Below, one piece after another: positions 1-41,600 of a stretch of 64,000 nucleotides of DNA. Source of the stretch: Antedon mediterranea. Its lineage: Eukaryota; Echinodermata; Crinoidea; Comatulida; Antedonidae. Position 1 is the stretch's first letter; each line of letters opens with the position of its first letter. The translations under genes and the position numbers were made by a program. Location of the stretch: NCBI RefSeq assembly GCF_964355755.1, contig NC_092678.1, positions 2,503,922-2,567,921 of the forward strand, given 5' to 3'. The notes under the pieces are model-generated. The model was given only the letters and a program-made list of their open reading frames with translations. It did not search any database and was not told the DNA's origin.

Positions 1-1249
1 GAATTGTGGTTGAATTTTTATGATAGTGTTTCAAGAGGGAAACTATGTAAAAAAACCATGTCATATCTGGTGTAATAATAGTGTTCTCAATGCCCAAGTA
101 GTATAAAGTACAAAATTACGTCAGTAGGGCAAACATCTGACCAATCTTGTAACTCCCTGGCACAAAGCTACTCCACAGTAGTTAAATACAATAAGTAGAT
201 GCTGTGTTTGAATTGAATTTGTAATAACAACATAATACAGTAATCGTAGTGTATTATTGTTTCCCTTTATGAAACCAGCCTGCTTACATACAATAAGTAT
301 TGAATAGAGAGACCTCAACCTGTTCTTTTATTCTCCATTCAAAATGTATCAATAACTAGTGCTAGTTGCTATTCTTGTAATGCACAGTGAATAGCAGTTC
401 TGAAAATAATATACAGTACTTAGTATTAAAGTTCTTATTATATTATGGCATTGTGGCGAGAAGAAAGGTTTATTTAGGGTTTAGTTCAGTCAAAAATTGC
501 TATCTATTTCATTCTGATATGTTACAAGCACAAGAAACAAACAAAATATTATCTTGACATTTGTATAAATAATAATAATACAAATTATATCGTTATTCCA
601 AAATACTAAAAGACAAACAAAATTGTTTGTTGTATGAAACAATGTTCCAACTGCTACCTGTACTTACAAGCATGGAGGTATATATATTTATACCTCCATG
701 TTACAAGGAAAGAACATTGCATGCCATTTAATATGTAACATTACTACAGTATGTATAGGCTTTCTGTAATGTGTCTAACAAAGTATTACGATCGCTTTTT
801 TACAAACTTGTTTTTCCAAACACCATTGTAATACGGATGTTGTTCGACAATGTGAATTTTCATTAAGGTTTTAATATTTCAAAATGCATTTAAATAAAAT
901 GAAATAAGTTGTTTTTTTCACGCATACATGATGTCGTGAATTACTTAGGTTTTTACGTGACTGAAATGTATAAAAGGTGTTAAATTGATGCGCACATAAA
1001 AATGTGTCTATCTTTAGTAAAATGTCGCGTCAATGTCTTATGTAATAGGTGAAAAGCATTTTACACTCTAGTACAAAAATGAAATAAATATTACTGTTCC
1101 ATGGTTGTCACAGGTAGTCATAAATATTTTCTGATACACATATATGTAAACAATTCCTAATGGTTGTTTTTTTCATATATTTATTAATTTGCTTTTTACA
1201 AAATTTTTTGAAATTACAATTTTTTTATAGTGTTATAATAAAACAAATA

Positions 1250-1534
1250 TTATTCCAGCTGTGATTTTATAATTTTTTTTCATAATATTTATAAATCAAA
1301 TCAATTTATATGTGTTGTTGTGTTAGGCTAATGCTATACAATAACATTATATTTCCTAATAGATTTTTTTCATTTGATTTTTCCCAATATAAAATGACTA
1401 ATTTGCTATAAAAAAATTTAATAATTTAATTTATACAGTTTTTTATATTATTATTATTCCTGCAGTGAGAGTGATTTTATATTATATTTTGTCATAATAT
1501 TCATAAATCAATTCATATGTGTTGTTGTGTTAGG
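1250..1534. repeat. Pair of about 80-bp direct repeats
   Basis: 1250-1327 and 1454-1534 share GTGATTTTATA, TCATAATATT and ATATGTGTTGTTGTGTTAGG, with small indels. Confidence 0.6.
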
Positions 1535-2045
1535 CCATATGAAATGTGTGGATAATCATATCAGAACAATTTTCTATTGACGTCAAAGAATAAAACAACT
1601 GATGAGGTGGCCTTGACTTGTTCAATCCTCCATCACGTCATCCTCTCAATAACTAATTAAAGATTCTGCTAATTAAACATTTATATTGATTTGGATTTTT
1701 TTTATTCTATAGAATATAAATTTGTTGAATAATTTTTAAATAAATTATATCCATATTCTGCCAGTAGAATACAGTAGGATCAATTAATGTCAACATAATG
1801 CTTACAAACAATCAATTATATACAAACATGTTTTCACGGGCACTTCTTTTCCATCCCACTTCTAACATATTATTTTTATTTATGTTAATTGATAACAAGC
1901 GTAGGATGGCTTTGCTTGGCATGTGACAAATTTTAACAAAAACTGAAATTAATTAATAAAAATAACTTGCATACTATAAGTATTTTAAGTATGAATATTG
2001 ATTTGGTTTCTCTTAAGTACATTCAGAATGTGAACATACCTGAGA

Positions 2046-2107
2046 ACCTGGTGGTCTAATGATAGAGTGTCTGATGTATTAAGCAGAAGAGTTTGAATCT
2101 TGGTTTT
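2046..2107 (+). mobile_element. Short tRNA-like SINE family 4, relic
   Basis: TGGTGGTCTAATGATAGAGT and GAGTTTGAATCTTGG resemble worn A and B boxes; the same layout recurs at 4059, 47098, 47253 and 48540. Confidence 0.4.
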
Positions 2108-3249
2108 TTTAAACTTGCATATTATCATTTGCAGATTGCATGTTTCATATACAATAAAGCTGATTAAAACTAGGGAACATATCAAAAGTATTTTACTGCA
2201 ATTACTGCAGTAACTATACTATATTTGGTTTACTCTTTAACCGGTATTTGCAATTATCTTAGCTATCTTTTTTGGTAATTATCAATTATTGCAATGACTG
2301 CCTCATAAACTTTTACATCAAAATAACTTAAATCATACATTAAATTGCAGTAAAAAATGTAGTTTCTGCAATAATGTCAGATAACTTAGCTGATATAAAT
2401 TATTAAATATTGTTTGTATCCTTCAATGATATTAATTTTGAACTGCTATGACCTAGCGCATCAATAGCAATGTGAAGGAGAGCATACAACAAAAGAATGA
2501 ACTAGAATTTAATTCTAACTTATTATGAGAGCTGGTTAAATGTAGAAATGAATTCATATAAAAATTAATGAATTAAAACATTAGACCTGCTAATGTAAAA
2601 AGTGTATGAGTGCGCTACCGAGTTAATACTGCCATACAACCGCAGTAAGCCATGATTGTGATGATTGACGCACATCACATGACCATGTACGCCTGATATA
2701 CGCCTGCCGTGTGGCAATAGACAAACGACACTAAGCTACTTATCTTCTACGTTGTGTCTTGTACTAAGCCGTGCATGGCTTCAGTGACGTACATCCAGGC
2801 AAGGAGATTTGTGATGTTGCTAGAATATAATGCATAAACTATATACACCTGTTGGGATATAGCTGTGTTATTTGCTATATCACTCAGCAGGCAATAGCAG
2901 ATATGATAGAATAGGAGAATCAAAGCATCCTGTATGCTGTATCTTAATATGCATATAATACTTTATAAATTTAAAAAAACCAACATGGGTTAATGCCCTA
3001 ACCTGATCTGAGTACCGTAATGTCATAAATTGTCATAGATTATAGGAATTAGTGTTTCCAACAAAATGCTATATCTTAATACAGAATTTTTTTAATGAAC
3101 ATCCATCAAAATGTAATTTAGATAATGGATAATGGTTGGTTGTCATACTATCTTACGGTAAATTGATTTATAAATACTATATATATAACTTACACATTTT
3201 TATTACAATCATTATACTGTATCTGGCAGTGATTTGAGCTGTTATGTAA

Positions 3250-4362: not shown

Positions 4363-4399
4363 CTAGATGGTACGCTCGCTTCGCTCGCGTACCATCTAG
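4363..4399. other. Hairpin, 13-bp perfect stem
   Basis: CTAGATGGTACGC at 4363-4375 pairs with GCGTACCATCTAG at 4387-4399; the 11-base loop is TCGCTTCGCTC. Function unknown; it could be the end of a mobile element. Confidence 0.5.
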
Positions 4400-4588
4400 G
4401 TCGTGCCCACAGATGGTTCTCGAATACACAGTAATTTCAGCGTAAAAAAATTCTTTTTTTTAATGTACGTACTGCAGGATGATAATAGTTATTATTGTTT
4501 ACAGAAACGAATAAATAGACACGATGATTTATGTATTGAACTGAAATTAGCACACTGGAAATTACTTCCGAAAGAGAAACTTGTCACA

Positions 4589-4621
4589 AAATGAGTCCAA
4601 ATTTGTTATTTGGACTCATTT
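4589..4621. other. Hairpin, 14-bp perfect stem
   Basis: AAATGAGTCCAAAT pairs with ATTTGGACTCATTT across a TTGTT loop, about 190 bases after the hairpin at 4363-4399. The two may bound one small element. Confidence 0.5.
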
Positions 4622-4758
4622 AAACAAACCCAATTTGTGTTTTGTGTGTAATATTAGGGTTGAGGGATGGGGAAGAGGATATGGGTACAAAGAAGAACAA
4701 TGTTTTAATATATTCTTTATCTACTCAGTAACGAAATATGTTTTTCATGTTTGATAGG

Positions 4759-5119
4759 CCTATAAATAATATACCACTTGATACAGTAACACATTTGCGA
4801 TTTAATACTTTGTTAAAACTGTCACTGTTATAGTCCATTGAAATAGCATGTACATGTAACGATACACGTACCACTACAACGTTTATATTCTTTGTAATTA
4901 TTAATTAATACAAACATTGAGAAGCAACTGTCAGTAGTACAGTTTATTTGTATATTGTACGTTTTGTATAACAGTAGGGCCTACTCACAGGCCTATAAAT
5001 AATATACCACTTGATACAGTAACACATTTGCGACTTAATACTTTATTGTTAAAACTGTCACTGTCATAGTCGATTGAAATAGAATACGGTAGTACATGTA
5101 ACGATACACGTACCACTAC
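4759..5119. repeat. Pair of about 120-bp direct repeats
   Basis: 4759-4876 and 4991-5119 share TATAAATAATATACCACTTG through ACGATACACGTACCACTAC with few changes. The second copy runs straight into the SINE at 5117. Confidence 0.8.
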
Positions 5120-5407
5120 CGATCGTCAGACCTAGGTTCGAATCCAACTCTCGCCGCATTGCTTGTATCCGTAGGCAAGATACTTTACTTACGTTGCCTC
5201 TCTCCACCCAGGTGTATAAATGGGTACCCAGTTAGATCTACACACAACTTTGCGCTGGTTACCGGCTGCATTATGGGAGTATGTTTCCATACGTGTTTGA
5301 TCCCAAAAAAAATACTGGGGTAATAATGCTTGTAAAGCGCCTTTGAGCATGATTACTCATGAAAAGGGCGCTATATAAATGTGGTATTATTATTATTATT
5401 ATTATTA
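5117..5407 (+). mobile_element. tRNA-derived SINE with TTA-repeat tail
   Basis: Pol III B-box-like GGTTCGAATCC at 5135-5145, then a body with GTATAAATGGGTACCCAG and AAAGGGCGCTATATAAATG, ending in a (TTA)n tail. The A-box part looks truncated. Its 5' edge joins one copy of the 120-bp direct repeat at 4990-5119. Confidence 0.75.
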
Positions 5408-6417
5408 CTTGTGTTAAAGCAAAGAGTTATTATTGGAATGTTCCATTCATCGGAAATCAATACATTTGTATAAATGTATATTAAATCTATCAAAATAGTA
5501 TGTTTTTAAGAAAATAGGTCTGTCTTCAACATTATGATGCTGTACTCGAGCTGTTCAACCGGTTTTCATCCATTAAAAACAATTATCATAGGAGGAGATA
5601 GGAAAATGCGAAGCATCCTCGTATTATTGTATGCGGGTATTTTTCAAGATAGACATGCATTGGACAGTGTATACCACGATCGGAAAACACCCCTATTTGG
5701 GGCAAATCTAAATTCGTTTTAATCGTCAATAACTAATTATCGAACTCCATTTAATTAGTAAACAGGGTTACATCAGGTGGTTAAAATCAGTATCGAAAGT
5801 ACGAACCAACTTTATATACCATCGAGTAAACATTCTAGAAGTAAGGCGCGATTTACCGAATTTTGCCCTTACGTAAATTTATATATAGATGACCACAAGA
5901 ACTTCTCGGAATAGTGTAAATTACCATTTCTACATGAAAAGCAAACCTTTGGGCGTATTTTTATAAAATATGAAGTTTAAATCATCACTATCTTTGCGAT
6001 AGATATTGAGATTATAAACAACTTAATATTGCCTTAAATATCATAATTATATTGTCAATAAAAAGGTAATTAAAGGTATATCAAAATTGCCTGCAGCTGA
6101 ATTTTGTTTTTTTTTCTAAACTGGTTTTATAACAAGAATACAGTAAATCTCTAGTTTCCTATGCTTTTTTTTTTGGAAATATCAACACTATTTCATTTCT
6201 ATAATGTACCCCAGCAACAAATGATCTCACATTTTGCATTGTTTGAAAACATATTAGAAATTTTATGTTATAATATTCACCTGTTTCCCTTACTTTTTTC
6301 ATTTAAAGTTTGCTCATACTTTGCCTCAATTTCATAATTATTGCTTTATCATTTCCTTTGCATTCTGTCTTGTTTTTATGATTTCATATATAAAAAGTAG
6401 AAGTATATCTTGTGCCG

Positions 6418-6538
6418 AGCTTACCTGGATAAACCAATTGAGGCCATAGTTCATGGACTATACTATTTGTAGAAAGGGAATTCAATGAAAACTCCTCTTT
6501 TTGAGGAGAAATGCTATTGTTGGTTTATCCAGGTAAGC
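6418..6538. mobile_element. Small inverted-repeat MITE family D
   Basis: GCTTACCTGGATAAACCAA (6419-6437) is perfectly inverted at 6520-6538. An inner hairpin (CTCCTCTTTTTGAGGAG) lies near 6492. One end of the same family recurs at 15335-15354 (GCTTACCTAGATAAACCAAT). Confidence 0.6.
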
Positions 6539-7679
6539 AGCATTCATAAACTACCAACACCACTGTTGGTTTGATTTGCATAATTTACACATTAATTTTA
6601 CATAATTTACAACAAAATTAATTTTTTATATGTATTGTATGTGTTAACACCCAGTAATAAGGAAATTTAGGATATATATTTCAATCAGTTTAAAAATAGG
6701 AAGACAAAAAAGTGTGTCAGATGAGACTTGAACATAGTAGCTTTAGATCACAAGTCTAGCATTCATACCTGTAGCATTTAATGTTTAATGTTACATTTGA
6801 AACCAAAGTAAATAAACGTGTAAAATATTAGGGCAATTCTGTTTTAAGACACTTGATGAAGAAGAATAATTAAACAGTAAAAAGTGTATTCTGTTTCCTT
6901 TGTCTGTCATCCCGAAACGAAAGCTTGCAAATTTTGTACATCTGAACACACCTTAAGATTCTATACCATCAATCAAACCGACATTGTTTCCATATCTTCT
7001 GTCTGAAAGCAACTTAAGACTCACTCTCCTTTGGTCATTGCTCTGTTTAATACTGCTAACTCTTTCTAATGCTACCAGTAAGCCGTATAAACCACTTTCT
7101 TGATCGTAATTTTTGTTTCTATCTTTTTGATCTCTGGAGAGTTTAACACATCAAGTTTACATTATCATTATCTCATACAGATTTTAAGTATTAATTACTT
7201 TTCAAATAGTTAGTCTACCAGTTTTGTTATAAAAAGAAAATATACTATTTATATAATATTTAAAAAATTGACTATTGCTCTTCTGAATTAAAGCATGGTT
7301 TTATGCACATGTGTATTCATATTTCCATCTACTTTTGTGATGTAAAAATAATGCGCAACCAATCAGAGCTCAGAAACATTTGATTCATTTAAATATTGAA
7401 TGTAGGATAAATAATACAACATAAATATTTTAAATATATTTTATAAAATAAATTTTGTTGATATTATTTTCATATATTCTGTATGATTGTCTAGATATAT
7501 ATTTTATCAGCGGAAATTAAATCTAATTATGACAACTATTAAAAATTGATATGACAATTTAGACAAACACCTGATATTTTATTGATTTATTTTTGTGCAG
7601 AAGTTAGTCGTTTGACGACGTTACAGTTAACTAGACTGTAATTTTGTAAGTGAAGTATGTAGGCAGGTTGTCCAAATAG

Positions 7680-8232
7680 GGTTGTGTGGTTCACGCTAGA
7701 TTGTTGATATCCTGATTACATGGTTCACACTATATTGTTGATATCCTGATAACATGGTTCTCGCTAGATTGTTATTGTTTAGATCCGGATAACATGGTTC
7801 ACACTATATTGTTTAGATCCTGATAACATGGTTCTTGCTAGATTGTTTATATTTACATCCTGATAACATGGTTCATGCTAGATCGTTATTATTTAGATTC
7901 TGATAACATGGTTCACGCTAGATTGTTATTATTTAGATTCTGATCACATGGTTCACGCTAGATTGTTTATATTTAGATCCTGATCACATGGTCCTCGCTA
8001 GATTATTTATATTTATCCTGATCACATGGTTCTCGCTAGATTGTTATTATTTAGATTATGATCACATGGTTCACGCTAGATTGTTTATATTTAGATCCTG
8101 ATCACATGGTTCTCGCTAGATTGTTTATATTTATCCTGATCACATGGTTCTTGCTAGATTGTTTATATTTAGATCCTGATCACATGGTTCTCGCTAGATC
8201 GTTTATATTTAGATCCTGATCACATAAGGTTT
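7680..8232. repeat. Minisatellite, about 38-41 bp unit, 14 copies
   Basis: The unit contains ACATGGTTCACGCTAGATTG followed by TTTATATTTAGATCCTGATC. Fourteen copies of the GGTTC..GCTAGAT core were counted, with variants TTCAC, TTCTC and TTCTTG. Later copies are more uniform. Confidence 0.85.
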
Positions 8233-33414: not shown

Positions 33415-34544
33415 TTAAATTCGGCCATGTTCCTCAATCCATTCGTCTGATGGCACAAATACTTTTTCTGGGGGGCAAAAGTTTGGATCAATTAGGAGTG
33501 CACCTTGTTCACGACGCTCTTGTAATACAACTTTAGCTTCTCTTTGAGCCCATTGTCTTCCTTTCCTGTAAAAAAAAACAATATAAATTTATGATTTATG
33601 TTAAAATTTCTCAATTTTAAATGTTCCACAATATCTGTAGCATCCTTTGCTGGTGTTTAGTTAGCTAAATCAATAAAAGTATGCAATCTTTGAGGAATAC
33701 TTACGGATCTGGTGTGTAGTATACCAACACACTTCCCAGGACAATTGATAATGATATCATTCCAAAAAACACAAGTCTTGATTGAATTCTATCATAGTAA
33801 GGATCATCATGAAAGCCAAGTTTTACATAGTCCTGAAAGAAAAGAAAATTATTATTCAAACCAGTTTGTACCATTTACTTTTTAAAATATGAACTGATTA
33901 TTTTTCAGAGTAATGACATACCCTACATACAATATTAATTAGCTTAGGCCTATAGCTAGCTAGGGCATTGCCAGTAAGATGTGAAACAAACAAATTTCAA
34001 TAAATTGGATGCACTAGTAGTAGGCCTACCACCACTACTACTAGGCCTATAGCCTATACCAGCAGCCTGCTTATTTCATCAACTTTTCCCGCAAACAATT
34101 TACAACCCGCAAACAATTTACAAAATTTGCCCAAAATTCAGGCAGGGGTTTAAATGCTAGGCTTAGACAAGGTAGGAGTATTTTCTATCTATATTTTGAG
34201 ACTTATTACTAAATTGGACCACTATAAATGAATTATCAATGAAATATATTTAGGCCTAAATGCTAGGCCTCGGCTGGCAAACATACGGGGTGGTTAATGT
34301 CGTCCAGGTCCTCTTTTCCCCGTCTGATCACTTCATCAATTTCCTCTTGCGTGACTTCGGTTCCTTTTCCAACAACAAATTCTGAACTGATAGCAGCTTG
34401 ATCGTTTTTACTTGTTGAACTGGACAAAGCATGTTGTAGTGTAGGCAGCGATGTTTTTAAAATTGTATTTGAAGACTGAAAATGATGAAAATGACGAACA
34501 TTTTTACACAAAATTATTCTCGACAACCGGCACAGAGCAGCCAT
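33415..34544 (-). CDS. NDUFB11: NADH dehydrogenase 1 beta subcomplex subunit 11 (NDUFB11/ESSS), mitochondrial
   Basis: Three exons on the minus strand: 34287-34544 (ATG 34542-34544), 33705-33832, 33415-33565 (stop 33415-33417). They give 178 aa with consistent phases and GT-AG introns. NDUFB11 is a single-pass accessory subunit of the membrane arm of respiratory complex I in the inner mitochondrial membrane. The N-terminus (MAALCRLSRIILCKNVRHF) is rich in Arg/Lys and free of acidic residues for about 40 residues, as expected of a mitochondrial presequence. One transmembrane helix covers about residues 106-125 (LVFFGMISLSIVLGSVLVYY). The family-type C-terminal part follows, with WAQREAK, then LLIDPNFCPPEKV and SDEWIEEHG. 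It is somewhat longer than the human precursor, mostly in the presequence and linker. The gene is head to head with ATRIP, and a foldback transposon starts 44 bp upstream of its ATG. No canonical AATAAA was seen just downstream. Confidence 0.9.
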
Positions 34545-37500
34545 TTTGATACTTTTGTTGACCTGACCTTTGGAGATATCTTTTCTAGTGGGTGTGTCGA
34601 AAGCGAAGACCTCGAAAGCGAAGATCGAAGACCGAAGACCTCGAACGCGAAGACCCTACGAAATGGCAGTGTGCACAAAATCCGACCAAAATCATACAAA
34701 ATCGTGATAACACCTTGAATTTACAGATCCTGAAAAAATATTTCAATTTTAATCGTTATATTATAAAAAATCATGACTTTATCTATGAACAAGCTCACGT
34801 GTTTTCGCCAATGGAGTTAATATGTGATATAGTTTTACGAACAAACACATCGCGCTATTTGCAAGGCGACGGACGCACAAGAAGGACCTCGCACATTAAA
34901 TGTCACTTGTTCCGATAACAATTTAAAATCATAGCCAATTGTTTATAAGTATAGAAATAAACTACAGTAAGTAAATTGTAAGAAGTAAAGGATGGCGGTA
35001 GGCCCGGTATTTAGGTTTATTTTAGAGCCTATAGGCCTATAAAAAGTGTCCGTATCATAGATTTTACACTTGCTTTTAAATGTTAGGTACAGAGATCTTT
35101 TTTGCATTTAAATATGTTGCTATGTGTTTTTTATCTATAATATTTGCCTATTGTTTATTATCTAAATGTATGAATAAATACAATAAGATATTCATTTTCC
35201 TGTATTGTATTTAAACTTTTCCATTTTCCCATTGTAACTATTGCTATTTTACTTAATCGCCAGTTTCAAAATGTTTTCTAATGTATTCATAATAGACAAA
35301 TAATAGGGCCTATATCAGTATCAGAATATTTAGTGTGGTTGGAGAAGCGACCGATGATGTAAAGAAAAATGTAAATTTTTTTTGGTTAATGAAATATTTA
35401 TTTTCCTTTTAAGGAAAATAAATATTTCATTAACCAACGTATGAACCACTAAACAAAACAAATTCTGCCGCAACGTATCATTGGCGCGCGCAACAGAAAA
35501 TCTATCTATCTATCTTCTATCTATTTTGCATCCCCTCTTAAGATCGAGAATCATGATGAACGTAATAAAGCAGAAACGGTGTTGAACACATCGGTTCCCA
35601 CTTGTGATGACACGTCACGCAACGTTATTTTCTTACGGCGCACTTTGCGTCGATCTGAAAACCAATTTCAGCTCTTAAAATATTTCCCGGGCCAATGACA
35701 GTTCGTCCCAACAGCTTACCGTGAACTAACGGAACTTTATTTTATATCTTTGTATTGTCAAAGTAAAAAATAATACTGTATTCAAATTATGATTTGACGA
35801 AAGGCTAATACTGTAGAACGAACGATAGACATCACACTCTGAACATTTTTCTTGATCGTTAACCCGTTATAATAGTATAATTCTGTTAGATTTGTTTGTA
35901 TTAGTGTCAATTCTATATTTAAATGGTCAACAACCGGTAACCTGTTCCTTAATTAAAATGTTATGTTTTCTTTTGTTAATGGACACTCATGGCAGGGATG
36001 CAAACATTTAGAAGCGGGACGTCGACAATCTGTTGAAAATCGGGAGACTGTTGAATAGTCGTCTCAACCACAAGCCTGTGAGATAGAAGGTTGGGGGTTA
36101 GAGTGGTTAAGCCCGATAAACATTCACCATCACTTAATAAAGATTTATAGAGAGTATCTCTTTTTGTATTCACCACGGGCAATGCTTGAAAACAAAAGTC
36201 AGTTTTTTATTTGATGATGAGGAAAATTGTGGTTGGCGGAACTGGAACTTCATTAAACTAATCTTTTGACAGTGTCGGTAAACGTAATACCGATATGAAT
36301 AAACACCCGTTTTAATATTGAAAAATAAATTAAACGTGAACACACTATCGTCACTAATCATATTGTAACAAAATCGGCAACTTGTAATTTTGGAGGGAAT
36401 ATTTTTTATTTCAATCTTTGTTTTGAATGGCTTTTGTCTTTGTGAACGTTCACATAATGGCATAATTATTCGGAATTATGGAAGCCGTGAAACAGATGAT
36501 ATGTCGCAGGAAACGACCGATTTATAACCAAAATTTGCAGAACGCTGATGCCTATATCGTTCGTTCTTTTTACTTCTTGTCAAATCATAATTTGAATATA
36601 TTCTGCCAATTTTGACCCGGGAAATATTTTAAGAGCTGGAATTAGTATCCAGATCGACGCAAAGTGCGCCTTAAGAACAAATTTGCGTGTCATCACAAGT
36701 GGGAACCGACGTGTTCAACGCCGACTGCTTTACGTTCTTCATGATTCTCGATCGTAAGAGGGGATGCAAAAATAGATAGAAGAGTATTTTCTTATGTTGC
36801 GCGCGCGTTCAATACAATACGTTGCGGCAGGATGTTTTCGTTTAGTAGTTCATACGTTGGTTAATGAAATATTTATTTTACATTTTTCTTCTTTACATAG
36901 TACTGTCGCTTCACCAACCACACTAACCGATACTGATAATATTATTTGTCCATTATGAATACATTAGAAAAACATTTTTAAACTGGCGAATAATTAAATC
37001 AGTAATACTGTAGTATTGGCTACAATGGGGAAAATGTACAAGTTTAAAATACTATACAGAATAACTCCAGGAAAATAAATATCTTATTGTATTTATTCAT
37101 ACAAATAGGCAAATATTATAGATAATAAACATACATCAACATAATAATATTTAAATGCAAAAAAAAGGATCTCTTAGTTGTATTCACGCGTACGTATAAC
37201 ATTTTTAAAAACAAGTGTAAAATCTATGATACGGACACTTTTTATATAGGCTCTAAAATTAGGCTAAATGCCTATCGCCATCCTTTACTTCTTACAATTT
37301 ACTTACTTTAATTTATTTACTTTACTGTGTAGTTTATTTCTATACTTTTCTATACAGTTGGCTATGGTTTTAAATTGTAGGCGACGTGTGCTACAATACA
37401 AAGTTATCGGAAAAAGTGACATTTAATATTGCATTCAATTCGAGGTCCTTCTTGTGTGTCCGTCGCCTTGCAAATAGCGCGATGTGTTTGTTCGTAAAAC

Positions 37501-38650
37501 TATATCACATATTAACTCCATTGGCGAAAACACGTGAGCTTGTTCATAGATAAAGTCATGTTTTTTGATAACATAACGATTAAAATCGAAATATTTTTTT
37601 AGAATCTGTAAATTCAAGGTGTTATCATCGATTTTGGTCGGATTTTGTGCACACTACCATTTCGTAGGGTCTTCGCTTTCGAGGTCTTCGGTCTTCGATC
37701 TTCGCTTTCGAGGTCTTCGCTTTCGACACACCCCTTTTCTAGTAAACAGCAGCCGGTACACAATCGTTTAGAATAACTAAAATCACGATTATCCTTGCCT
37801 ATTTTAATATGTTTCCATTGCTTTTTTCTGATAATTAAATAAGGTAGTTTTGTTATACTTCACATATAAAATATTATTATATAATAACATTTAAATAAAT
37901 TAGGTTTGAATTTATTTTCATTGATTTTCATTTTTTTCCACCAAAAATATTATGAACACGCGCATGGGGCCGGGGTACTGTTTTGCTCGTAGGCTGCTTT
38001 GTAGGCCTAGCTTTTATAAGCTATGTATTCGTTTAATTAATTAATAACATTATAATTTAGAATATTCTGGTAAGGGTTTTGAATTTGATATGAATGATCG
38101 TTTGCGTAATGTGTAGTTTCCTTAAATTAATGTAGTTTTTGTAGGCCCTCGCTTGTTTGCCATATTAATTATTATTATCGTCTGCCATGCCAATTCAATT
38201 GCTCTTCTACTACTAGCCTAGGCCTAGACCTAGGCCGTAGGCCTAGGCTAGACTCTGGTAGACTGGGTCTGAACTGGCAAAGGCAGTGCGGCTAGGCTAG
38301 GGCCTATATGCCTATCTAGACGACACAACCACACACAGAGCCTGGATGTAATATATAGGTATTTATTCATAAAAAAAACACATAAATAGTACAAACAGAA
38401 GGCAGCCAACGGCTAAATAATTCTGCAAACAACGTACAAAGTAAAAATTCAAAAGAATCTAACAACAATATAATATATACAAGTACACAGTAAATCAAAT
38501 CATTAAAAATCCGTTAACATTCTTTAAAATGTTATGCGCAATTACTATTAATACTAATAAATTATTTTTTCAGGGGTACAATATAATGTTGGCTACTCCT
38601 AATCTAGGCTAGTCAAAATCATATAAAAGATATATATTTTTTCATTTCAG
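34545..38650. promoter_or_regulatory. Head-to-head NDUFB11/ATRIP promoter interval, split by the foldback element
   Basis: NDUFB11 (minus) and ATRIP (plus) diverge from this interval. Without the foldback element only about 950 bases would separate the NDUFB11 ATG from the ATRIP 5'UTR acceptor at 38650, which is typical of a shared divergent promoter. Sequence outside the element: 34545-34580 is the remaining NDUFB11 leader; 37743-38650 is AT-rich with a GGCCTA-rich patch at 38214-38310 and the end of the presumed ATRIP 5'UTR intron. No further exon can be assigned. Confidence 0.5.
34589..37734. mobile_element. Foldback DNA transposon with about 1.2-kb inverted arms and 8-bp target duplication
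   Basis: The element starts TGGGTGTGTCGAAAGCGAAG and ends with the inverse of GGGGTGTGTCGAAAGCGAAG. It is flanked by a perfect 8-bp direct repeat TTTTCTAG (34581-34588 and 37735-37742). The left arm (34589 to about 35838) is repeated inverted in the right arm (about 36548 to 37734). The outermost 90 bp are almost identical and made of GAAGACC/GAAAGC-type subrepeats; inner parts have diverged and carry indels. The unique core (about 35840-36545) holds two short minus-strand ORFs (36170-36463 and 35976-36182) with no recognisable transposase, so the copy is non-autonomous. Long inverted arms with outer short repeats and an 8-bp duplication resemble, by architecture, the TU foldback family described in sea urchins; sequence relationship was not tested. 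Confidence 0.9.
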
Positions 38651-38658
38651 TATTCAAA

Positions 38659-41600
38659 ATGTCTGCGAACTCAAGTACATGGAACAATTATCGTCATGAT
38701 AGAAATATACAGACAAACATAAATCATGGATCGGCACCATTCCCAAAGCGCCAAAGGTTAATGACCGGAGATGGTACGGATGAAATTGACGAGTTCACAG
38801 AAGACGATGACGATTTTACATCTGAAGATTTCCTCGCTATGGATGAACTGGCCTCGCAAGCGCTAACTCAAAATACAAATAGTTCCAAAAGCAAACTCCA
38901 GAATGAAAAAACTCCACTTAAAAAATGCAATTCCAATCGGGAAAATGCACCCTCTCCATATAATTCAAAGGTGTACTATCATCAACATTACCCACGTTCT
39001 GTCTCTTCTAAATCAATTCCATTTGAAGGGAAATCACAAAAGGTGTATCCGGTTCAAACTAATATACCGTTTGGAATTTCTGGTAAACATTCCAAAACGC
39101 AAAAAGGTGCACCAGTGAGTAAGACCAACATGGCAAGAGGTACAACAGCTAGTCTTACGCCCCCTGCAGACCAATCTACAAACAACGGTTTATCTGAAGT
39201 ATCTGTGGAATCGCACTCTGTTAGCTTTCAGGAATTTGAAAATATCAAGAGAGAATTAGAGAAAACAAAAAGTGAGGTAAATTTGGAAAAGTATGAACAA
39301 AAGGGATTAGGTCAAAATTATTTTTATATACAGTACATTTATATTTACAATAACGTATTCATGATTTATTTTTTTTCAATATAGTTTACTGTATGAGACA
39401 CAGTCACTGCAAACGCAGCGTGTGTGTGATTAGTTTACTGTATGAGACACAGTCACTGCAAACACAGCGTGTGTGTGATTAGTTTACTGTATGAGACACA
39501 GTCACTGCAAACACAGCGTGTGTGTGATTAGTTTACTGTAGAGACACAGTCACTGCAAACACAGCGTGTGTGTGATTAGTTTACTGTATGAGACACAGTC
39601 ACTGCAAACACAGCGTGTGTGTAATTACCCAAACAAACATTTGCTAAATAATTGCATAAACAGATTAAAAAGTAAACAAAAAGTAGTTACTGCATTATCT
39701 GCAGTAAAAAGTAACATTCTTTTTATATTAATAAAGCCCATTCCCATTTGAACACCAGCATTGCCATCACATCTGCAGTAATAGAGAAACCTAAACATAG
39801 CTTAAACTGTAAACTATTGGTATAAAAATGATTTATTTTTATACAGATGAAAACTTTGCAAAGTGAGAGGTTTGGTAAAGATGGAGAAATTAAAGTTCTA
39901 CGACAAAACCAGACCAAGTTAAATACTGAATTGAATAGAATACACCTTGAAAGAATTGAAAAAGAACAGGTAGCCAAGATGCAGAGAACAGAAAGAGAAA
40001 AAGAACTACAAACTCAGGTAGCATATCTTATGACCTACTGTATGACCATCCACTCGATCACATATTTAAAATTGGTGTTACATTTTTCCTGTATGTTTTT
40101 TTTTTAGCTCGAGAAGCTAAAAACAGAGATGCATTTTAAAAATCAAGAACTACTCGAGACACAGAGTTTGTACAAATTATCAGAGATGAAACAACAAAAG
40201 GCTAATGGGTTACTGATGTCGCCAACATCTCCAAGACGAAGTCAGCGGCGGGTGAAAGTCAAGTCGCCTGGCACACCTAAAGGATTTCCGACTTGTCGAT
40301 CCTTTATGGCTAAGGACGGTGATGCCGATACTACGGAGAAAATGAGTACAAACGACACAGGTAAAAATTATAGGAAGCTTGTAGCTACTAAAACCCTTTT
40401 TGTTTATCTAGGTTTAACACTAACTTTGGCATTTTCAAGATTCCAGATAATTGTTATTAAAGAAGAAATAACAAATTTTTATTTAAAAATTGAAACAAAT
40501 TGAATTGAAATACTGTATGTATTAATTTAATATGTATAAATGGGGAACATTAAAAACATTTTCTGTTTACAGTTGAAAAGGATGAAGAGAAAACAAAAGG
40601 GCCGACATTACCTTTGTCTTACAGAGCATGCTCATCGGACAAAATGTTCACAGGTAAGATAAATTGAAAAAGCTGTAAATCACTCAACACTCTATTTCCT
40701 TGTCACCATTATCTTAAATGTTTAAATTTATTAGTTTTGAAGAAGAGAAACTTCAATTTAATCTAATCCATTAGGAGAAGTCTTTTAATTTAATGTTTAA
40801 ATGTGTTGTTAATAGCAAATTGACACCTTACATCCATGGTGTGAACTTAAAGTTAAATGTTTAAATTGGTTGTTAAGGGTGATAAAAAGCAATAAATCTG
40901 TCGTCACTCTCTGACTTTGATTCTAATGGGGGAAACGATAGCAAATCTGACCACTTAAAATATTTAAAGGTGATTTAGATAAGTGTGTTAGACCTACAAT
41001 CCTGTTGTTTAACTTGCGTGTTTAGAGTTACATGGAATTAACAGATATAACACTGGTTGTTTATCAATTAATTACAGCCCAAATTATAAATTTTGGGACC
41101 AGAATTATTGGAATGCCCTGCCCAGTTAGGTATAATATAATAGACACTAACCATAATCAAAAAATAAGTATAAAGCTCTGTCTACACTTTATGTGACAAA
41201 ACAATTTGATGTGCAAATATATGGACAGAAAGATGTCATCACTACCATATTATTTGGGAAAATCTATTTTTTGATACTGTAGACAGCTTAAGTGTTTCTG
41301 AATGGAGCTCAAATGTGTTGGCTGCAGAAAATTCAAATTCTAGAGAGATCTTTCTAGATTGTTTATATTTTATATTCTTATTTACATTTTATTTTGGATG
41401 TTGATTATTTTTGTACTTGATATTTAATTTTTTTTACATTTATTTCTATATTTTGAAATTTTTTTCACCAGGCAACTATTGTGGGGCCAGACTGCTGAAA
41501 ACTGTTCTAGAAAGACCAGCATCTTCAGCATACACAGATAACAATAATTTCAATACTGGGTTAGTTACGTTACTAAATCCTACGACGACTCGTTTAGACC

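Follow-up and report, generated by a model that had tools for sequence, protein, structure and literature searches.

A foldback-type transposon family in Antedon mediterranea and its insertion beside a predicted NDUFB11 start codon

The NDUFB11–ATRIP locus

The window analysed here is a 64,000-nucleotide stretch of the Antedon mediterranea genome (contig NC_092678.1, positions 2,503,922 to 2,567,921 of the forward strand), in which two predicted genes are arranged head to head around a long inverted repeat (Table 1). Three chained minus-strand exons match the Pfam family ESSS (E=1.4e-17), pointing to NDUFB11; the opposing gene is assigned with less certainty to ATRIP, from a match of chained plus-strand frames to the PDB entry for ATR-interacting protein (E=3.5e-5), with zero matches in Pfam, and zero ATRIP matches in PDB when the query was a 142-aa piece or just the first exon. 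A pyrimidine-rich run ending in CAG at window positions 38637–38650, 8 bp before the ATRIP ATG, resembles a splice acceptor, from which an upstream non-coding first exon of ATRIP may be proposed.

The two start codons now lie 4,115 bp apart; subtracting the element and one copy of its target-site duplication leaves 961 bp, in agreement with the separation of about 1 kb given in an earlier note on this DNA. The left end of the element is 46 bp from the NDUFB11 ATG, and 915 bp of native DNA lie on the ATRIP side of the insertion. The same note placed a perfect 8-bp duplication, TTTTCTAG, 37 to 44 bp from the NDUFB11 ATG; these distances are confirmed (34581 and 34588) and a perfect duplication is present, but its length is revised, the 8 bp lying inside the 10-bp CTTTTCTAGT.

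Table 1. Features of the insertion locus (window coordinates) and of the related families
Feature	Position	Strand	Remarks
NDUFB11 first coding exon	34287–34544	−	ATG at 34544; splice donor GTATGT placed by eye
Native DNA, NDUFB11 ATG to duplication	34545–34579	−	35 bp
Left target-site duplication	34580–34589		10 bp, CTTTTCTAGT, perfect
Foldback-type element	34590–37733	unassigned	3,144 bp; provisional subfamily A
Left terminal 22 bp	34590–34611	+	GGGTGTGTCGAAAGCGAAGACC; conserved family end
Left inverted arm	34590–35695	+	element positions 1–1106
Direct sub-repeats, left end	34597–34655	+	short, 15/29-bp period
Hairpin, left arm	35382–35437		27 bp, perfect
Central spacer	35696–36611		916 bp; no frame >101 aa between stops
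Right inverted arm	36612–37733	−	element positions 2023–3144
Direct sub-repeats, right end	37668–37726	−	short
Right terminal 22 bp	37712–37733	−	inverted match to left end
Right target-site duplication	37734–37743		10 bp, CTTTTCTAGT, perfect
ATRIP first coding exon	38659–39300	+	ATG at 38659; end approximate, placed by eye
Family end pattern			GGGTGTGT.GAAAGCGA.GACC
Sister-family longer copies (L044–L047)	C2:13845082, C3:16363342, C1:325543, C5:11733083		

Boundaries and internal layout of the element

Both boundaries of the element are set to the single base by perfect inverted termini of 22 bp, which match twice within the window vs 0 times in 100 shuffles. The two arms are 76% identical in a gapped alignment, and a perfect inverted pair of 20 bp at 35779/36579 extends them beyond their aligned lengths of 1,106 bp (left) and 1,122 bp (right) to about 1.2 kb, the figure proposed previously. 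Complementarity reaches 98% in the outer 104 bp and 96% in the block 34705–34891, with shorter inner blocks at 83–100%; the blocks at 96–98% make up the outer ~300 bp of the arms. Near-identical outer ends and diverged inner arms, as first described, are thus both recovered, and the cause suggested for them is partly supported (see below). The direct sub-repeats are confined to the outer ~60 bp of each 1.1-kb arm, and the left-arm hairpin, sought at ≤6 edits, recurs in 12/12 further copies of subfamily A, while 0/4 of the remaining copies checked have it.

Little coding content is evident: the longest stop-to-stop frame wholly within the element is 109 aa, and a Pfam scan of the five longer element frames at E up to 1 returned zero matches. 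Long inverted arms, internal direct repeats and scarce coding content together characterise a foldback element, and the overall layout first reported (inverted arms, duplication and distances) needed small corrections only. The element is a real DNA transposon, apparently non-autonomous.

A dispersed family and its sister

A genome search with the end sequence, as proposed in the earlier note, defines a multi-copy family together with a sister family. The 354-Mb assembly contains, at ≤2 mismatches, 154 forward and 156 reverse occurrences of the terminal 22 bp, and the reversed control returned 0; among the 100 end matches listed, 87 are free of mismatches, 12 differ at one position and a single one differs at two, and on account of this distribution the other 210 are taken to carry two mismatches. 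The sister family has the ends GGGTGTGTAGAAAGCGACGACC, exactly two mismatches from those of the family, and is represented by 114 + 117 ends at ≤1 mismatch, so that most of the two-mismatch end matches probably belong to it. Its copies often show ~1.7 kb between listed ends; three of the four longer copies fetched are flanked by a 10-bp duplication free of mismatches, and a simple inverted repeat, about 320 bp long, is present in L045 and L047.

Within the family proper, at least 13 copies, the window copy included, span all 3,144 positions at 94–100% identity on five contigs, and further groups of copies stand at about 79–85% identity to the window element; the whole-element search scored 40 of 213 candidates, so these copy counts are lower bounds. 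The two closest relatives, C3:25340382 and C3:25591512, lie on a contig other than that of the window, in target sequences that differ from the window's, and are 99.94% (2 differing sites) and 99.78% (7 differing alignment columns) identical to it.

Target-site duplications and a nested copy

Duplications were tabulated for 34 loci, the window and 33 fetched, with three cut sequences (L003, L006, L007) and one locus sharing its site with another (L037) excluded from the count. Among the 30 unique two-ended loci that result, 28 have a 9–11-bp duplication with ≤1 mismatch; L001 and L004 are two-ended, yet a matching duplication is absent. With these two left out, the duplication is a perfect 10 bp at 20 of the 28 sites and 10 bp with ≤1 mismatch at 22, and the remaining six sites carry duplications of 9 or 11 bp, one with a mismatch; 10 bp is the modal length. 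As a control, left and right flanks paired across different loci gave 0/756 10-bp matches. Base counts over 22 sites showed, by inspection, no clear target motif. The loci L025 and L037 (C9:13532609 and C9:13549363), 16.75 kb apart, share the same target duplication, and this pair is probably a segmental duplication that followed insertion.

At C9:7288757–7295067 (L015) a full copy sits within another copy of the family, and the split outer copy comprises family positions 1–248 and 239–3144, so that positions 239–248 are doubled. This nested copy is a natural empty-site test, returning exactly 10 bp, and because exactly ten positions are doubled the element ends are fixed independently of the window. 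That the inverted arms might instead stem from misassembly, or from an inverted duplication that arose locally with no transposon involved, is suggested by nothing but the inverted layout itself; the spread of full-length copies over five contigs, with differing targets, and the nested insertion with its exact 10-bp doubling, leave this explanation a vanishingly small probability, and an assembly artefact is in practice excluded by the full-length copies in targets of their own. The proposal of a foldback-type transposon between NDUFB11 and ATRIP is upheld by its many copies with target duplications of their own.

Divergence of the arms

The arms of 25 copies, sorted provisionally into groups A (the window type, 13 copies), B (9) and C (3), were aligned, and 14 of the 25 copies were taken into trees, in which L034, provisionally in group C, falls with B. 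Three zones behave differently. Across the outer 105 bp, with gapped columns ignored, left and right ends within an element are 90–100% identical by bin and ends of different groups 89–100%; such conservation across the aligned copies fits constraint, as expected of transposase binding sites. From 106 to 450 bp the data reject neither a clade of all left arms (p=0.42) nor one that unites the two arms of group A (p=0.13), and exchange between arms by conversion is possible there. From 451 to 1000 bp, the 14 left arms and the 14 right arms form separate sets at 100/100 support, and a clade uniting the two A arms is rejected (p about 1e-87), which rules out, for this stretch, homogenisation between the arms of subfamily A.

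On these trees the inner left and right arms are resolved as two lineages older than the subfamilies. The inner-arm divergence of the window copy is therefore old, is copied whole at each transposition, and does not date the window insertion. The earlier attribution of the near-identical ends to selection or conversion can now be divided: selection fits the outermost 105 bp, and homogenisation of the arms is rejected for subfamily A at 451–1000 bp, with conversion possible at 106–450 bp.

Superfamily affiliation and the search for a transposase

Foldback arms arose several times, and few animal superfamilies besides MULEs are known to make 9–11-bp duplications. Assignment of the family to the Mutator-like class, from its 9–11-bp duplications and long arms, is probable. 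MULEs are characterised, in PMC6446971, by 8–11-bp duplications and often by long inverted repeats; duplications within this range are found at 28/30 unique two-ended loci, and the arms of 1,106 and 1,122 bp are in keeping with inverted repeats that commonly run to hundreds of base pairs.

A coding partner was sought in the copies and elsewhere in the assembly, which holds 36 MULE-domain and 10 FLYWCH matches, nine loci of which were fetched (L038–L043, L048–L050). Searched in both orientations for both end types at up to 5 edits, these nine loci lack family ends, apart from L049, in which related ends at 5 edits form a small inverted pair (about 6024–6419, ~400 bp apart). A transposase between family ends was found neither among the copies examined nor at the nine MULE/FLYWCH loci fetched. 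The L049 pair, which reads GGGTGTTTCGAAACTA(G)AGACC with ends like GGGTGTTTCGAAACTAGAGACC and lies beside a MULE-domain region, perhaps represents a third related family.

Several candidates were examined and set aside. The long copy L004 contains a FLYWCH-like frame, recognised by eye with no Pfam match, and a PHD-like frame, whose match to Pfam PHD (E=0.0049) falls short of the cut-off; its coding block recurs in L021, L022 and L024 without family ends and is therefore assigned to a different, nested element, to which L004 owes much of its length. This separate element (L004 about 4391–8178, L021–L024) is 91–99% alike over the longer aligned pieces, with 99.98% identity between L004 and L023. 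A frame in the sister copy L045 (EADTR-type by eye, no Pfam match) matches 150 scored places; its close matches on C1–C5, L045 apart, are by eye not near sister-family ends among those listed, and the frame is taken as nested and not as the family transposase. A foldback-type MULE at C2:22951500–22969500 has no definable ends or duplication, and so was not counted as support.

Other MULE-associated structures were encountered alongside. Inverted arrays of 15–17-bp repeats flank the MULE-domain region at C2:22951500–22969500 (L049, L051, L052), beside which lies a 2-kb foldback-like stretch with 445-bp arms at 98%. At L039 (754–7006) a 637-aa MULE-domain frame lies between 89-bp inverted repeats that are 98% alike, and the whole resembles a complete, recent element from a different family.

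That the family is a foldback transposon of some superfamily other than Mutator would accord with the lack of a transposase found with family ends, and with the differing transposase classes that foldback-like elements carry, according to PMC3169594; against the 9–11-bp duplications of modal length 10, which fit MULEs, such an origin is judged unlikely.

Comparison with known systems

The foldback/Mutator type is already known from Tm1 of root-knot nematodes, and the present family is probably another member of it. As described in PMC3169594, Tm1 has, as here, inverted repeats of composite build that enclose short direct repeats, no clear target consensus and some copies without transposase, and 8–10-bp duplications in 45 of 53 complete copies resemble those of the family; the commonest Tm1 duplication is 9 bp vs 10 bp here, the end motifs differ, its repeats are mostly variable-number units of 13–15 bp, whereas here sub-repeats occupy ~60 bp of a 1.1-kb arm, and Tm1 has a Phantom-like transposase copy, with none found for the present family.

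Animal MULEs of the Phantom and Rehavkus groups likewise have 8–11-bp duplications and inverted repeats of hundreds of base pairs in PMC6446971; their MULE and FLYWCH domains are present in this genome, but unlinked to family ends in the loci fetched. The same paper gives Rehavkus a 9-bp duplication, inverted repeats of 26–400 bp and a PHD finger, against a modal 10 bp here; Rehavkus also has a minisatellite, and in the present family no transposase was found. Phantom carries FLYWCH and MULE transposase between its ends; here the FLYWCH-like frame (L004) is in a nested element. Maize Mu, in PMC2774946, shares with the family highly similar ends common to differing elements, with 9-bp duplications vs 9–11 bp here, and is reported to prefer the 5′ ends of genes, a preference not evident here from the two youngest sister copies considered below. 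In the literature covered on foldback/Mutator elements in echinoderms, crinoids and sea urchins, which lay mostly outside subscription journals, the family is absent.

Age, mechanism and site of insertion

The window insertion is judged recent from three near-identical copies, the window copy among them, and a high CpG observed/expected ratio, 1.45 in the element vs 0.70 in the window; the latter fits a young insertion if CpG is methylated. By prediction, the insertion probably still segregates among individuals of the species. A query of the 42 joined flanking bases at ≤3 mismatches gave 0 matches in the single assembly searched, a count that bears on this assembly and not on other individuals.

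The sequence of events proposed is that a non-autonomous, Mutator-type foldback transposon recently entered the NDUFB11/ATRIP gap by cut-and-paste in trans. A transposase encoded elsewhere would bind the conserved outer ends and mobilise the element, and a staggered cut at insertion would yield the 10-bp duplication. The NDUFB11 start would be kept in the residual 35 bp, with a short leader and a TISU-like ATG, so that the insertion would be tolerated; upstream elements, if any, would mainly have been displaced by 3.15 kb. Taken as a whole, this account of a recent, trans-mobilised insertion with the native NDUFB11 start retained is considered probable.

The two insertions available (n=2), whose flanks are unannotated, lend no support to a preference for gene starts. 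Over ~2.8 kb to the left and to the right of the two youngest sister copies no gene was recognised (10/66 frames scanned); nine of the 10 flank frames gave no match, and one was reverse-transcriptase-like (E=4.5e-4, below cut-off). Because these two sisters are without a recognised gene, the position near NDUFB11 is no evidence of targeting.

Possible consequences for NDUFB11

The claim that the element must have displaced a shared promoter, or now supplies one for NDUFB11, is too strong, as 35 native bp on the NDUFB11 side and those on the ATRIP side remain. The residual NDUFB11 upstream DNA contains, at window positions 34559–34570 on the minus strand, AAGGTCAGGTCA, which we take to resemble a nuclear-receptor half-site pair.

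The NDUFB11 ATG lies in the context CAAAATGGCTGC, which agrees at 10/12 positions with the TISU consensus; under assumed base frequencies a random ATG context reaches such agreement with a probability of about 0.0017, and the resemblance is partly forced because of the Met-Ala-Ala codons. According to PMC2518114, TISU is found no more than 30 bp downstream of the transcription start; where translation begins in TISU the median leader is 12 nt, and mitochondrial functions are over-represented among genes with TISU. A native NDUFB11 start could accordingly lie within the residual 35 bp, a reading given a larger share than an element promoter.

Exaptation of the left end of the element as a new NDUFB11 promoter or first exon would draw on the closeness of that end to the ATG, on its CpG observed/expected ratio of 1.59 in the first 105 bp, and on a reading frame of NDUFB11 that is open upstream into the element (34263–34655). 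That upstream frame is, however, short and unremarkable, the element is very young, and the 35 native bp with their short-leader-like start persist, so exaptation appears distinctly doubtful. The native start in the residual DNA is the preferred reading. A wider and rather improbable proposal is that a segregating insertion trims a bidirectional promoter to 35 bp with NDUFB11 still active, or else that the element end is the NDUFB11 promoter; if true, carriers and non-carriers would form a natural test of the minimal DNA needed by a short-leader (TISU-like) promoter.

The NDUFB11 site offers a testable case of how little distance may separate a tolerated 3-kb insertion from a start codon. For the family itself, two ideas that tend to be conflated for foldback arms are separated, that of inner arms as two lasting lineages through successive transpositions and that of near-invariant outer ends, and the foldback family documented in this animal genome, together with its sister family, has been active recently and is apparently non-autonomous.
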